DNA of 21,753 bases from positions 1-21,753 of IMG/VR virus record IMGVR_UViG_3300025110_000155; one strand, given 5' to 3'. Source of the stretch: a virus. The stretch's first letter is position 1. Each line of letters opens with the position of its first letter. Under the pieces are notes generated by a model, which saw only the letters and a list, made by a program, of their open reading frames with translations, ran no database searches and was not told the DNA's origin. Positions 2,540 to 15,137 of the stretch are shown here, one piece after another. A program made the translations under genes and the position numbers.

Positions 2540-2826
2540 AGAAATCAAGCCAAGCATTAGCGAGATGGACTAAAGATAGATATCCATTAAGCGGATATAA
2601 ATTTACAGTTACAAATAGAGACGATGAAGCAGTGAAAACTTTGAAACAAGCTGTGAAATTAATGAATAAAGATTCAAGAATTAAACATAGAGTTAGATTT
2701 ATGGGTCGAGGACAGCGTACAGCATGGGCTAGAGTAGAAGGATTACATCCAAGAGCTTATGATTGTTATCTTCCCTTAGATAAGGCAACTCATTTCGATG
2801 TTTATGTACACGAAAGAGATAGATAA
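2536..2826 (+). CDS. 96-residue basic hypothetical protein
   Basis: The start is ATG 2536, 7 bases after AAAAGGA. An in-frame ATG at 2503 would be longer but lies inside the previous gene without a ribosome binding site. The product is rich in Lys and Arg (KKSSQALARWTKDRYPL, IKHRVRFMGRGQRTAWARVEG), suggesting nucleic-acid binding. The RGQR patch and aromatic residues could form a small alpha/beta fold. The stop shares a base with the next ATG (TAATG). No family is recognised. Confidence 0.7.
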   Translation: MKKSSQALARWTKDRYPLSGYKFTVTNRDDEAVKTLKQAVKLMNKDSRIKHRVRFMGRGQRTAWARVEGLHPRAYDCYLPLDKATHFDVYVHERDR

Positions 2827-2924
2827 TGCTAGAACTTATAGTATATAGTTTTGCAGGTGGTGCAGCATTAGCATACATCATATGGTATTTAGCAGATACA
2901 ATTGCTAGATACACTGCAAAATAA
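2826..2924 (+). CDS. 32-residue membrane microprotein
   Basis: ATG 2826 shares its A with the TAA of the preceding gene, so translation is likely coupled. There is no separate strong ribosome binding site. The frame ends at TAA 2922-2924. The product has one hydrophobic segment (LIVYSFAGGAALAYIIWYLA) followed by a basic end (DTIARYTAK). It is the last coding region before the gene-free structured stretch. The function is unknown. Confidence 0.5.
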   Translation: MLELIVYSFAGGAALAYIIWYLADTIARYTAK

Positions 2925-3239
2925 AAAGAATATGAGAGAAATAAGTGGCGCACAACGTCTTACGGCTCTCTCATATAATACAATACTGGTGAGTTAATTC
3001 CAGCAAGCTATTGTATTTAAACCGTTTTGACCGACGGGTCAAATAGTGTAGTGCAAGGAAACGCGTCTTACCAAGAGGCGTAACTTGATTGTTCAGGCGT
3101 GGTAGCCAGGTTCGAACCTGAGAAGGTAAGGATCACATCACTCTCCCGAGTGGGAACAAGTTCTAGTAGGTTAGAGATGGTATCTCGGTCAAACTAGTTG
3201 GAGGTGAACCCAAGTCCTCCCTACACACTTAGAAATAAA
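2925..3239 (+). ncRNA. Gene-free stretch, candidate structured RNA
   Basis: No convincing coding frame exists here. Helices seen by eye, in order: 2930-2939/2967-2976 (10 bp); 2977-2985/3009-3017 (9 bp) enclosing 2986-2989/3000-3003; 3026-3032/3037-3043 (7 bp, loop GACG); 3061-3069/3073-3081 (8 bp, one mismatch, loop ACC); 3082-3086 plus 3091-3094 with 3154-3162 (9 bp with a bulge), enclosing hairpins 3107-3111/3116-3120 and 3139-3143/3148-3152; 3163-3167/3193-3197 enclosing 3174-3178/3182-3186; and 3200-3204/3216-3220. Several begin on the base after the previous one ends, as in coaxially stacked RNA. It is not a tRNA: the GGTTCGAACC at 3109-3118 cannot form a proper T-arm. It lies upstream of the 3253 gene and could be a regulatory leader, a stable noncoding RNA or an origin/packaging structure. 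I recognise no known RNA family. Confidence 0.5.
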
Positions 3240-3252
3240 TGAAGGAATAACA

Positions 3253-4107
3253 ATGTTAGATTATGTTACAACAAGGACAGATCAGTTCAGTGTGCCCGAT
3301 GATATAAGCTTTGATATAGGGTATGAACCGACAAAAATCGATGGCAAGAAATATGTATATCGAGAAGACACAGGTCAATACCTAAATGTAGTAGGTAATG
3401 ACTTCACAGCTACTACCCATAGTAATTTTGCTCATACAGTTTGGAGCACTATGAAAGATAAACTAACCGACAATGAGCTGCAAGACTGCCATATTAAGTG
3501 GAGTACTGCTCGTAACGGGGGATTCATGATGATGGATATCACGTTACCTAATGTAAGTTTTGATATCTTTACCGACAAACATTCAGAGAAAATTGGTCAG
3601 CGTATCATAGGTTTACATGGAATAGATGGTTTATGCTCTAACATTGTAGTGTATGGACAGATCTCTTTCTTCTGCACCAACAAGATGGTAAGAGGTGAGC
3701 ACGATATTGTTAAACGTAAGAACACTTCAGGCTTTAGCATCACAGATTTCGCTACTCAACTTGAGAAATCTTCTAATGATTTTTATGAGCAAGCCGACAT
3801 GCTACAAAATTGGGCAAGAATATCAACGGCTTACACAGATGTTGAAGATTTATTCAAGAAAATTATGAATGATAAACAAGCTGAGAAAATGGTATCTTTG
3901 TACAACCAAGAAGTATCTACTCGTGGAGAAAATGTTTACTCTATCTATAGTGCGTTCACTAACTACGCTAGCTATGCTGATAAGCGTAATGGCTTTACAC
4001 TACGTAATACAGGTAACGATACTCAAGCTGTATCAATGTGGAACAGAGAAAAAGAGGTAACTAAATGGACTAGTTCTCCTCAATTTCAGAGTTTGGTGGC
4101 AGCATAA
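3253..4107 (+). CDS. DUF932-like phage/plasmid protein
   Basis: The 284-residue product resembles the DUF932 (phage/plasmid-related TIGR03299-type) proteins. The N-terminal region has a short VVGNDF segment, followed near the middle by a stretch with the typical small-residue and cysteine pattern (GIDGLCSNIVVYGQ, FFCTNKMVRGEHD). The C-terminal half is helical (EDLFKKIMNDKQAEKMVSLYN) and ends in polar residues. Family members occur beside replication genes in phages and plasmids, and their biochemical role is unknown. ATG 3253 follows GAAGGA (3241-3246). It is the first gene after the structured stretch and shares a base with the next ATG (TAATG). The family assignment is from motif look only. 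Confidence 0.55.
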   Translation: MLDYVTTRTDQFSVPDDISFDIGYEPTKIDGKKYVYREDTGQYLNVVGNDFTATTHSNFAHTVWSTMKDKLTDNELQDCHIKWSTARNGGFMMMDITLPNVSFDIFTDKHSEKIGQRIIGLHGIDGLCSNIVVYGQISFFCTNKMVRGEHDIVKRKNTSGFSITDFATQLEKSSNDFYEQADMLQNWARISTAYTDVEDLFKKIMNDKQAEKMVSLYNQEVSTRGENVYSIYSAFTNYASYADKRNGFTLRNTGNDTQAVSMWNREKEVTKWTSSPQFQSLVAA

Positions 4108-12447: not shown

Positions 12448-12886
12448 AGAAGATACCCATGAAGTTGTAAAGTATCCTGAAGATATGTACTGTGTTTACT
12501 TTCATAAAGATCCGGAAACGGATAACGTAGTATACGTTGGTAAGGGTACTTTACATAGAGCATACCAGATAACTAACCGTGGTTATGACCACCATATTTG
12601 GTTGCTTGATAAGTTGTCTGTCCACAAGATACAAGATGTTGTTGTGATTAAAGGTGGACAGATGACAGATAAAGAAGCTACTGTAGTAGAATCTCATGAA
12701 ATAAAATGTTGCTTAAGGAATGGGTGTGACCTGTTTAACGTTACACATAATCCGTTCCGCAAAACTAGGAGAAATAATGCAGAACATAATAGAGTATTTA
12801 GAACAGAAAATTATAAATACACCGCAGAGGTGGGCAGTAAAGCTGGTGAACGAACACAAGCTGGATCCGAAGCGGTTAGTATATGA
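12428..12886 (+). CDS. GIY-YIG family nuclease
   Basis: The N-terminal 90 residues show the GIY-YIG fold: CVYF (residues 23-26) for the first strand, VVYVGKG (34-40) for the second, R44 shortly after, a helical middle, and a glutamate (E83 or E88) in DKEATVVESHEI for metal binding. Such nucleases include free-standing homing endonucleases and host- or self-DNA cutting phage enzymes. The start is uncertain: TTG 12428 has GGAG nearby, while ATG 12485 (residue 20) has only a poor site. The last 36 residues (from about 117) lie over the RNA polymerase start in another frame, a 110-base overlap, and look like a low-complexity polar tail (TRRNNAEHN, KAGERTQAG). Confidence 0.7.
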   Translation: MRQIEIREDTHEVVKYPEDMYCVYFHKDPETDNVVYVGKGTLHRAYQITNRGYDHHIWLLDKLSVHKIQDVVVIKGGQMTDKEATVVESHEIKCCLRNGCDLFNVTHNPFRKTRRNNAEHNRVFRTENYKYTAEVGSKAGERTQAGSEAVSI

Positions 12887-15137
12887 CGCATTAACTATAC
12901 TGCAATACCACTTCACAAAAACTTCAACTTCTGAATCAGCAACATGTAAACTTACAGCAGCTTCGGTTGCTATAGGTAAGAATGTGTTGCTTCAGAAGGG
13001 AGTAGAGCTAGGGTTTAGAGCTGACGTAACTGTTGGCGACCTAGTTCTTGAAGCGTTCTATGAATGTGGATACATAAAGATATTTAGAGCTCCAACTGAA
13101 GCTCAAATAAAATGGGAAGCTAATCCTATTGGTAAGAAGCCTTTCAGTAGAGCTCCATATATGATAGAGACCTCTGAAAAGTGGTTACAAATTGGATCAC
13201 TTCCCAGTGCCGTAGTAAACGAGTTAATACAGAACACTTCGTTTACGAAGATAAACCGTATTCATAATCTATTCCAAGAGAATGGTTACCCAGTAATAAA
13301 GCATTGGGGTTTCGATAAAGCCGAATCATTTAAAGAGTTATTAGATGAACCATTTATAGATGCAATAAACAAATTGCAGCAGACAGCTTGGACTATTGAT
13401 AGTGATATCTTAGAAGCGGTTAAGAAAAACAAACGTAAGTTTGTAACTGAAACTCTTAAAGTATCAGATGAGACCGGTAAGAACTACCGCTATTGTATAT
13501 TTGGTAACAACAAAGAGTTGGAAGGAAAAGATTTATACTGGAATGATGTGGTATTTAAACCAGATTTAGGTAATAAATCTTTAGAGAAAAGGTATTACGG
13601 AGAGTTAAGAAGATTAACTAATAAACTTCGTAATAAACCTGACAAGAAGCCATTAGTCAAAGCTCAAAAGAAATATGATAACGCTGCTACTAACTGGAAT
13701 GCTAAGCTAGTATTATTAAAGAACCGTAGTAAGTTTGATGCTTACAACATGACTGTTCAGAAAGCTGAAGCATTAGAGAATAAAATCTTTTTCCAATATG
13801 TAGATACAGATTATCGTGGTAGACTATATTACAGAGAGTCTTACTTGAACTATCAAGGTAAAGACATGGAACGTGGTCTACTTAAGTTCGCAAATGCTAA
13901 ACCAATGACTGATGAAGGATTGTATTACTTTGCAGTACATACATCCTGTACATACAATCAATCATATACGATTGATAATATACCTGAGTGGTGTGGTGCT
14001 GATTATAAGAGTCACTTGGAAAATGAAGGGTTGACAGACATCTCAGTTGATAAGATGACTATTGATGATAGAGTTAAATGGGTCTCTAACAATGAAGACT
14101 TTATCAGAAATACTTGGATCAACCGTACTATCCATGATAAAGCAGAGAAGCCTGTTAGCTTTCTTGCTTGTTGTAAAGCATGGTGTACTTTATGGGATCA
14201 ATCTCCTGAGAATGATTACTATATAAACCTTCCTATTCCTATTGATGGGTCTAATAATGGGTGGCAACACTTGGCTGCTATATCTAAAGACAAAGAAGCT
14301 GGTAAGCTCGTAGGTCTAGTTCAAACAGAAATACCTAAAGACTTTTATGTACAAACGGCTAAAGCTTTAATAGCTCGTATGCCTGAGTGGTTTGAGTCTC
14401 GTGATATGCCTATGAAACATATCCGTAAAGGTGTATCTAAACGTGGATCTATGACTAGAGCTTACAGCGCAGGTCATTTAGCCATAGCATTAAATATGTA
14501 CGCTGATTGCTACGCTGAAGGATTCCATAGTAAGTATAATATATCTATGTCAGACTGTAATGATCTATCTTTTAATCTAATTAAAGCGATAGATGAAGTT
14601 TGTCCCGGTCCGTTAGAAACTATGAGTTATCTACAAGCAATAGCAAACCACGTTATAGCAGACTTGAATGAGCCTGTTATTGAGTGGACTACTCCATCTG
14701 GATTTCCAGTACGATATGAAAATTACGTAATGGAAGATATCAAATGGAAGAGTTGGATATCGGATATGAGAATCCAACATGTCGGCAAGGAACACCGCCT
14801 TGTATACGGCAAAAAGATAGCAAGTCCTGGTGGCTTTGCTTCGGGCATAAGCCCAAACTTTATTCACAGTATGGATGCAGCTCACATGGCGTTAATTATA
14901 CACCATTGGGACGGTGATTTCGCTGCAATACATGACTCATTTTCTACTCACGGTTGTGATGTAGCTAGCTTATTAGATTTAACTAAAGAAGTATTCATTA
15001 AAATGTACGATCATGGCGATTACTATCAACATATAGCCGAGATGTTATTAATGGAGCCTGAAAAGTTTAGTTATAACTACAAGCTAGGAAATCTAAACGT
15101 AAAAGAAATCGCTAATAGCGACTATTTCTTTTCGTAA
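12777..15137 (+). CDS. T7-like single-subunit RNA polymerase
   Basis: This 786-residue DNA-dependent RNA polymerase would transcribe the later phage genes from phage-specific promoters. The catalytic set is complete: D345YRGR (T/DxxGR motif), motif A D490GSNNGWQHLAA, motif B K555RGSMTRAY563, with the same 8-residue K-to-Y distance as T7 K631-Y639, and motif C H719-D720-S in AIHDSFSTHG. The SGISPNFIHSMDAAH segment before motif C is also classic. T7's enzyme is 883 residues, so the N-terminal promoter-binding part is shorter. The start is ATG 12777, 6 bases after AGGAG. A longer frame from ATG 12720 lies in the nuclease gene without a site. It ends the rightward replication block, followed only by a 61-residue gene and a terminator. 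Confidence 0.97.
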   Translation: MQNIIEYLEQKIINTPQRWAVKLVNEHKLDPKRLVYDALTILQYHFTKTSTSESATCKLTAASVAIGKNVLLQKGVELGFRADVTVGDLVLEAFYECGYIKIFRAPTEAQIKWEANPIGKKPFSRAPYMIETSEKWLQIGSLPSAVVNELIQNTSFTKINRIHNLFQENGYPVIKHWGFDKAESFKELLDEPFIDAINKLQQTAWTIDSDILEAVKKNKRKFVTETLKVSDETGKNYRYCIFGNNKELEGKDLYWNDVVFKPDLGNKSLEKRYYGELRRLTNKLRNKPDKKPLVKAQKKYDNAATNWNAKLVLLKNRSKFDAYNMTVQKAEALENKIFFQYVDTDYRGRLYYRESYLNYQGKDMERGLLKFANAKPMTDEGLYYFAVHTSCTYNQSYTIDNIPEWCGADYKSHLENEGLTDISVDKMTIDDRVKWVSNNEDFIRNTWINRTIHDKAEKPVSFLACCKAWCTLWDQSPENDYYINLPIPIDGSNNGWQHLAAISKDKEAGKLVGLVQTEIPKDFYVQTAKALIARMPEWFESRDMPMKHIRKGVSKRGSMTRAYSAGHLAIALNMYADCYAEGFHSKYNISMSDCNDLSFNLIKAIDEVCPGPLETMSYLQAIANHVIADLNEPVIEWTTPSGFPVRYENYVMEDIKWKSWISDMRIQHVGKEHRLVYGKKIASPGGFASGISPNFIHSMDAAHMALIIHHWDGDFAAIHDSFSTHGCDVASLLDLTKEVFIKMYDHGDYYQHIAEMLLMEPEKFSYNYKLGNLNVKEIANSDYFFS

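Follow-up and report, generated by a model that had tools for sequence, protein, structure and literature searches.

A manA RNA in a T7-like marine podophage, probably acquired from T4-like phages as an exact module

A stretch without genes in a viral DNA of 21,753 nucleotides (IMG/VR record IMGVR_UViG_3300025110_000155, positions 1 to 21,753; hereafter the window) encodes a full-length manA RNA, a known family whose source description is that of Weinberg et al. (2010; PMC2864571). Literature reports place manA only in T4-like phages, marine metagenomes and two gammaproteobacteria, whereas the window belongs to a T7-like podophage; the main element is known and the type of phage that carries it is new. 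Also new are the transfer of the RNA on its own, a promoter phased to its 5′ hairpin (P0) in T4-like copies, tRNA genes as downstream contexts in some copies, and two unlisted motifs, H1 and X. The window copy was probably acquired from a T4-like phage as an exact module of ~205 nt.

The carrier's RNA polymerase is T7-like (12720-15134; Pfam RNA_pol; 32% to Roseobacter phage CRP-7). The phage also encodes a Gp2.5-like ssDNA-binding protein and a DNA polymerase whose best matches come from Pelagibacter phage Kolga and CRP-7, and its host is probably a marine alphaproteobacterium. The gap of 328 bases (2925-3252), which a first-pass annotation had singled out as gene-free and as a possible new structured RNA, is confirmed by the positions of the open reading frames (ORFs) on either side, which end at 2924 and start at 3253. 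The features discussed below are as follows.

2826..2924, + strand: 32-aa ORF (MLELIVYSFAGGAALAYIIWYLADTIARYTAK) directly upstream of the gap, conserved at the start of the slot in podophage relatives
2930..2976, + strand: H1 hairpin, separate from manA and not in Rfam (z -3.9)
2977..3017, + strand: H2, an AT-rich hairpin, weak alone (z -1.7)
3026..3043, + strand: P0, the 5′ hairpin of manA (fold; C-G to U-A change between the window and contigs L005/L006)
3046..3051, + strand: 5′ strand of the outer helix P1, pairing with 3221-3226 (fold, covariation)
3089..3159, + strand: multi-branch domain, in which helix 3089-3094/3154-3159 encloses three hairpins (fold)
3200..3220, + strand: 3′ hairpin GGAGG(UGAACCCAAGU)CCUCC, abutting P1 (fold)
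3221..3226, + strand: 3′ strand of P1 (fold, covariation)
3253..4107, + strand: gene for a 284-aa protein, downstream of manA, a relative of an HMO-2011 gene

In the sensitive mode of Rfam, a cmscan of 2800-3300 with permissive filters aligns 3027-3230 (+) to RF01745 over model positions 1-192 at 67.5 bits (E 3.9e-17), so that the copy exceeds the curated cut-off of 55.2 over the whole model. Pelagibacter phage Mosig also carries manA (64.0 bits), as does a contig related to the window, L001 (71.0 bits). A covariance model (R1), made for this analysis on 42 manA sequences, gives the window 94.1 bits, a score that is not independent because the window copy is among the 42. The Rfam scan of the window with default filters returned no match, and a whole-record manA scan with stricter filters failed to detect the RNA in L001 and L005; the default result is a false negative for a divergent member of the family. 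That empty scan is what would speak for a new family, as proposed at first reading, but the 204-nt core matches RF01745 in full length and above cut-off, only H1 stays unlisted, and a new family is hardly credible. A tRNA or tmRNA was also rejected as the identity of the stretch, with no ARAGORN or Rfam match.

The other half of that proposal, that the stretch encodes a structured RNA, was right. On the + strand, 2925-3239 has a minimum free energy of -96.5 kcal/mol against -78.2 ± 4.8 for 100 dinucleotide-preserving shuffles, none of which folds as well (0/100; z -3.8); the - strand, at z -2.9, folds less well. Two helices drawn by the first-pass annotation, one of 10 bp (2930-2939/2967-2976) and one of 9 bp (2977-2985/3009-3017), are both present, and its helices from 3026 onward agree with the minimum-energy fold and mostly also with the manA consensus, as does its multi-branch junction, where one helix encloses three hairpins in the fold. 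Three abutments between consecutive helices had also been claimed, of which 2976/2977 stands, while 3081/3082 and 3162/3163 are absent from the minimum-energy fold; this shows others, e.g., 3153/3154 and 3220/3221.

Compensatory changes, the check proposed alongside folding energy, are present in abundance. In an alignment of 42 manA sequences, scored over the helices given by Rfam together with a candidate pseudoknot of four pairs, the paired fraction of cells is 91.7% (75.1% in shuffles and at most 47% in slid versions) and 41 of 53 pairs are changed on both sides (26.7 in shuffles and at most 18 in slid versions). The sequences behind these changes include the window group. P1 (helix 1) is paired in 99% of cells with both-side changes in 4 of its 5 pairs, the multi-branch helix (helix 4) has them in 6 of 6, the 3′ hairpin at 3200-3220 (helix 14) is paired in 100% of cells, and G-U pairs are tolerated in the helices. 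These changes, together with the C-G to U-A change in P0, indicate that the manA fold is under selection as RNA. A possible pseudoknot was marked with a question mark in the source description (PMC2864571). On our own reading of that work, its partners are possibly the GUGGU loop and an ACC loop; this pairing is kept in 95% of cells with 0 pairs changed on both sides, and its last pair is broken in 4 of 42 sequences. In the window a GUGGUA loop lies within the multi-branch domain (3099-3104) and the partner loop reads CUCCC, with only the G-C core of the candidate pseudoknot kept.

How is manA distributed among phages? Matches to the consensus occur in 42 annotated phage records, each either a cyanophage (T4-like if described) or a marine virus genome without annotation. 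Mosig, found separately, has an unannotated manA at MT647606.1 108164-108371 with its own promoter (TTGACA/TATATT), and as a cultured phage it offers a tractable system for testing the RNA; a published search of pelagimyophages for riboswitches (PMC7029224) reported none. A pattern search for further window-type copies gave no match. The 20 pattern matches in cellular genomes were treated as chance; none is blastn-similar to the window manA, and six of them, scanned with the manA model, gave no match.

The window manA is 97% identical to the copies in L005 and L006, against 94% in the near relative L001. Both L005 and L006 are T4-like contigs (gp32, PHROG 224) in which manA follows gp32. Among the manA contigs compared, relatives of the window DNA polymerase occur only in L001/L007, which are one contig, and a gp32 relative occurs in 46 loci. 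Homology between the window and L005/L006 starts at P0 and stops just past P1 (3025-3229), with unrelated flanks on both sides. In podophage relatives whose DNA polymerase is 77-85% identical, the genes on either side are retained as far as the contig extends, but neither manA nor the 284-aa gene is present. Since homology stops at the edges of the RNA and close podophage relatives are without it, manA has moved alone; as it is widespread in T4-like phages, the direction would be from these to the podophage. An assembly artefact behind this likeness was considered, since many contigs break off at manA, and rejected: two diverged contigs, the window and L001, are arranged alike, and gp32 followed by manA is found in both L005 and L006.

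The slot exchanges elements between phages, and many contigs have an end within manA or right at it (15 of 95 matches are cut at the 5′ side), as happens in assemblies when genomes share sequence. Both observations would suit a DNA element, a hot spot of recombination or exchange in which the RNA fold is incidental. Such an element is nevertheless very improbable given the compensatory changes and tolerated G-U pairs, the stronger fold of the + strand and a promoter phased to the 5′ hairpin (see below). Contig ends at manA are expected if near-identical copies are common to co-occurring phages. Contigs with such an end include L006, L008, L010, L034, L046, L058, L065, L066 and others.

The slot itself looks like an RNA island of exchangeable elements in the podophage clade. 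H1 has a nearly invariant internal loop (GUGGCGCAMAACGUCUUACRGC) and 3 pairs changed on both sides among 5 distinct sequences. It recurs in L001 and, after other elements, in L148, L248, L256 and L262, relatives without manA, so that across the clade its neighbours are manA, X or tRNA-Trp. H2 as a unit is absent from the nearest relative, L001. AT-rich matches that link the 5′ hairpin with Enterococcus and Lactococcus phages were judged chance. Where the window has manA, relatives have the conserved element X of ~95-135 nt (L149:2486-2580, L159:2558-2668, L148:2459-2582, L156:2261-2395, L248:3181-3276 and others), possibly a new structured RNA. It has an outer helix ACUCG/CGAGU, a CUGRU-GUGGCG-AYCAG hairpin with an A-U to G-C change, and a varying number of inner hairpins; the copies scanned (L148, L149, L154 and L156) have no match in Rfam. 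A tRNA-Trp (anticodon CCA) is found in L148 (2583-2656), L156 (2397-2470) and L162 (2138-2211), and in L148 and L156 it lies 3-4 nt 3′ of element X.

What does manA do in these genomes? The discoverers class it as cis-regulatory and a probable riboswitch (PMC2864571), that is, a metabolite sensor for the next gene. In keeping with this, the fold is complex and conserved and most copies stand upstream of an ORF. In the window the RNA has the position of a potential 5′ UTR, with an ATG at 3253 on the same strand, 26 nt past P1, and a possible ribosome-binding site (GAAGGA) at 3241-3246. The gene that follows, however, encodes an unknown protein of 284 aa with faint similarity to DUF932/TIGR03299. 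Its relatives in HMO-2011, CRP-1, CRP-345 and CRP-738 have an upstream gap of ~60-90 nt, and no manA was found near them in the stretches scanned. A tie between manA and its downstream gene was rejected: HMO-2011-type phages carry the gene and, in the stretches scanned, not the RNA, and close relatives carry neither, so the two have separate histories. Among named phages, too, sites vary, manA standing after gp23, pstS, regA or ferredoxin genes and before talC, purL, gp32, small unknown genes or a tRNA, with no common pathway downstream. No ligand or regulatory effect is known in the literature, where the role is still called unverified, and we regard a metabolite riboswitch as improbable.

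Placement of the RNA in T4-like genomes is more uniform on its 5′ side. A strong sigma-70 promoter (at least 10 of 12 matches) lies just 5′ of 98 of 116 copies; by the same measure, 62 of 2000 random places have one. The first paired base of P0 is 5-6 nt past the -10 box in 60 of 72 distinct segments; from this spacing the T4-like transcript is predicted to begin at the first base of P0. No such promoter was found upstream of manA in the window, L001, L005 or L006. On the 3′ side, where gene calls are crude and counts approximate, a same-strand ORF starts within 60 nt in 43 of 64 distinct contexts and at 61-120 nt in a further 7, a tRNA lies within 60 nt in 8 (seven of them at 3-9 nt), and 6 have neither. 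The tRNAs at 3-9 nt are tRNA-Asn or tRNA-Gly in the T4-like contigs L010, L013, L021, L038, L064, L078 and L146. With a tRNA downstream in 8 of 64 contexts, the effect of manA need not involve translation or a ribosome-binding site. A terminator as the usual 3′ end was rejected, with no enrichment directly 3′ of manA (5/95 vs 10/400). Terminator-like sequence does occur just past manA in L133, L134 and L138 (P-HM1, MED4-213 and P-SSM7): AACCTCG..CGAGGTTTTTT; CCCTCTTTTAGAGGGTCTTTTTTTT.

These contexts bear on whether the RNA acts in cis or in trans. A free-standing RNA made from its own promoter, or trimmed from longer transcripts, e.g., at a tRNA junction, might act on a host protein, a polymerase or another RNA. 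Each of 11 named phage records scanned has a single copy, the RNA is kept while its genomic site differs, it was transferred without its neighbours, tRNA genes follow closely in seven contexts, and in L005 manA, after gp32, runs into a convergent gene. Two results argue the other way: in 50 of the 64 distinct contexts an ORF on the same strand starts within 120 nt, and terminators are not enriched. We consider a trans-acting RNA unlikely, if less so than a riboswitch.

We rank highest, at about an even chance, a cis-acting 5′ leader that affects elongation or stability. It is favoured because a position at the 5′ end of the transcript is the common pattern and because of the tRNA cases. On this account the ~205-nt module would come from the T4-like marine phage pool and enter the slot where the podophage clade keeps exchangeable RNA elements, with the smaller, clade-specific H1 preceding it there. 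If transcribed in the window phage, manA would form the folded 5′ part of the transcript and act in cis. Its effect on what follows would not depend on any single ribosome-binding site and might consist, for instance, in shielding the transcript or rendering the polymerase termination-resistant. Against such a leader, manA in L005 has nothing left to lead, one copy per named genome is more typical of a trans-acting RNA, and the window, L001, L005 and L006 are without a sigma-70 promoter. A broader reading, which we hold tentatively, sees in manA a general phage device instead of a metabolite switch: a leader or free RNA, independent of the gene behind it, that travels between T4-like and T7-like phages as an exact module. 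On this reading the podophage RNA island swaps manA, tRNA-Trp, H1 and X.

Three constraints on function emerge: the predicted start of T4-like transcripts at P0, a tRNA as the next feature in some contexts, and lone transfer between unrelated phages. Together they make a switch for one metabolic pathway less likely and allow reporter tests of a leader against a trans-acting RNA. They also show that RNA elements, and not genes alone, are traded between phage groups.

The window copy resembles known manA (RF01745; PMC2864571) in its full-length match, the same helices with covariation, a marine phage as carrier and an ORF downstream. The wcaG RNA (RF01761), a leader-type RNA of marine phages and cyanophages from the same survey (PMC2864571), is a separate family with no match in the window. 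Unlike known manA, the window copy is carried by a T7-like podophage, belongs to a sub-group with a changed partner loop for GUGGU, has no sigma-70 promoter in front and no mannose or photosynthesis gene nearby. The HK022 put RNA and the EAR/epsC element are processive antitermination RNAs, cis-acting, folded, near the promoter and indifferent to the genes that follow. They are set beside manA only for a proposed likeness of action, not for one in sequence or structure, and by this analogy manA may likewise act by antitermination.
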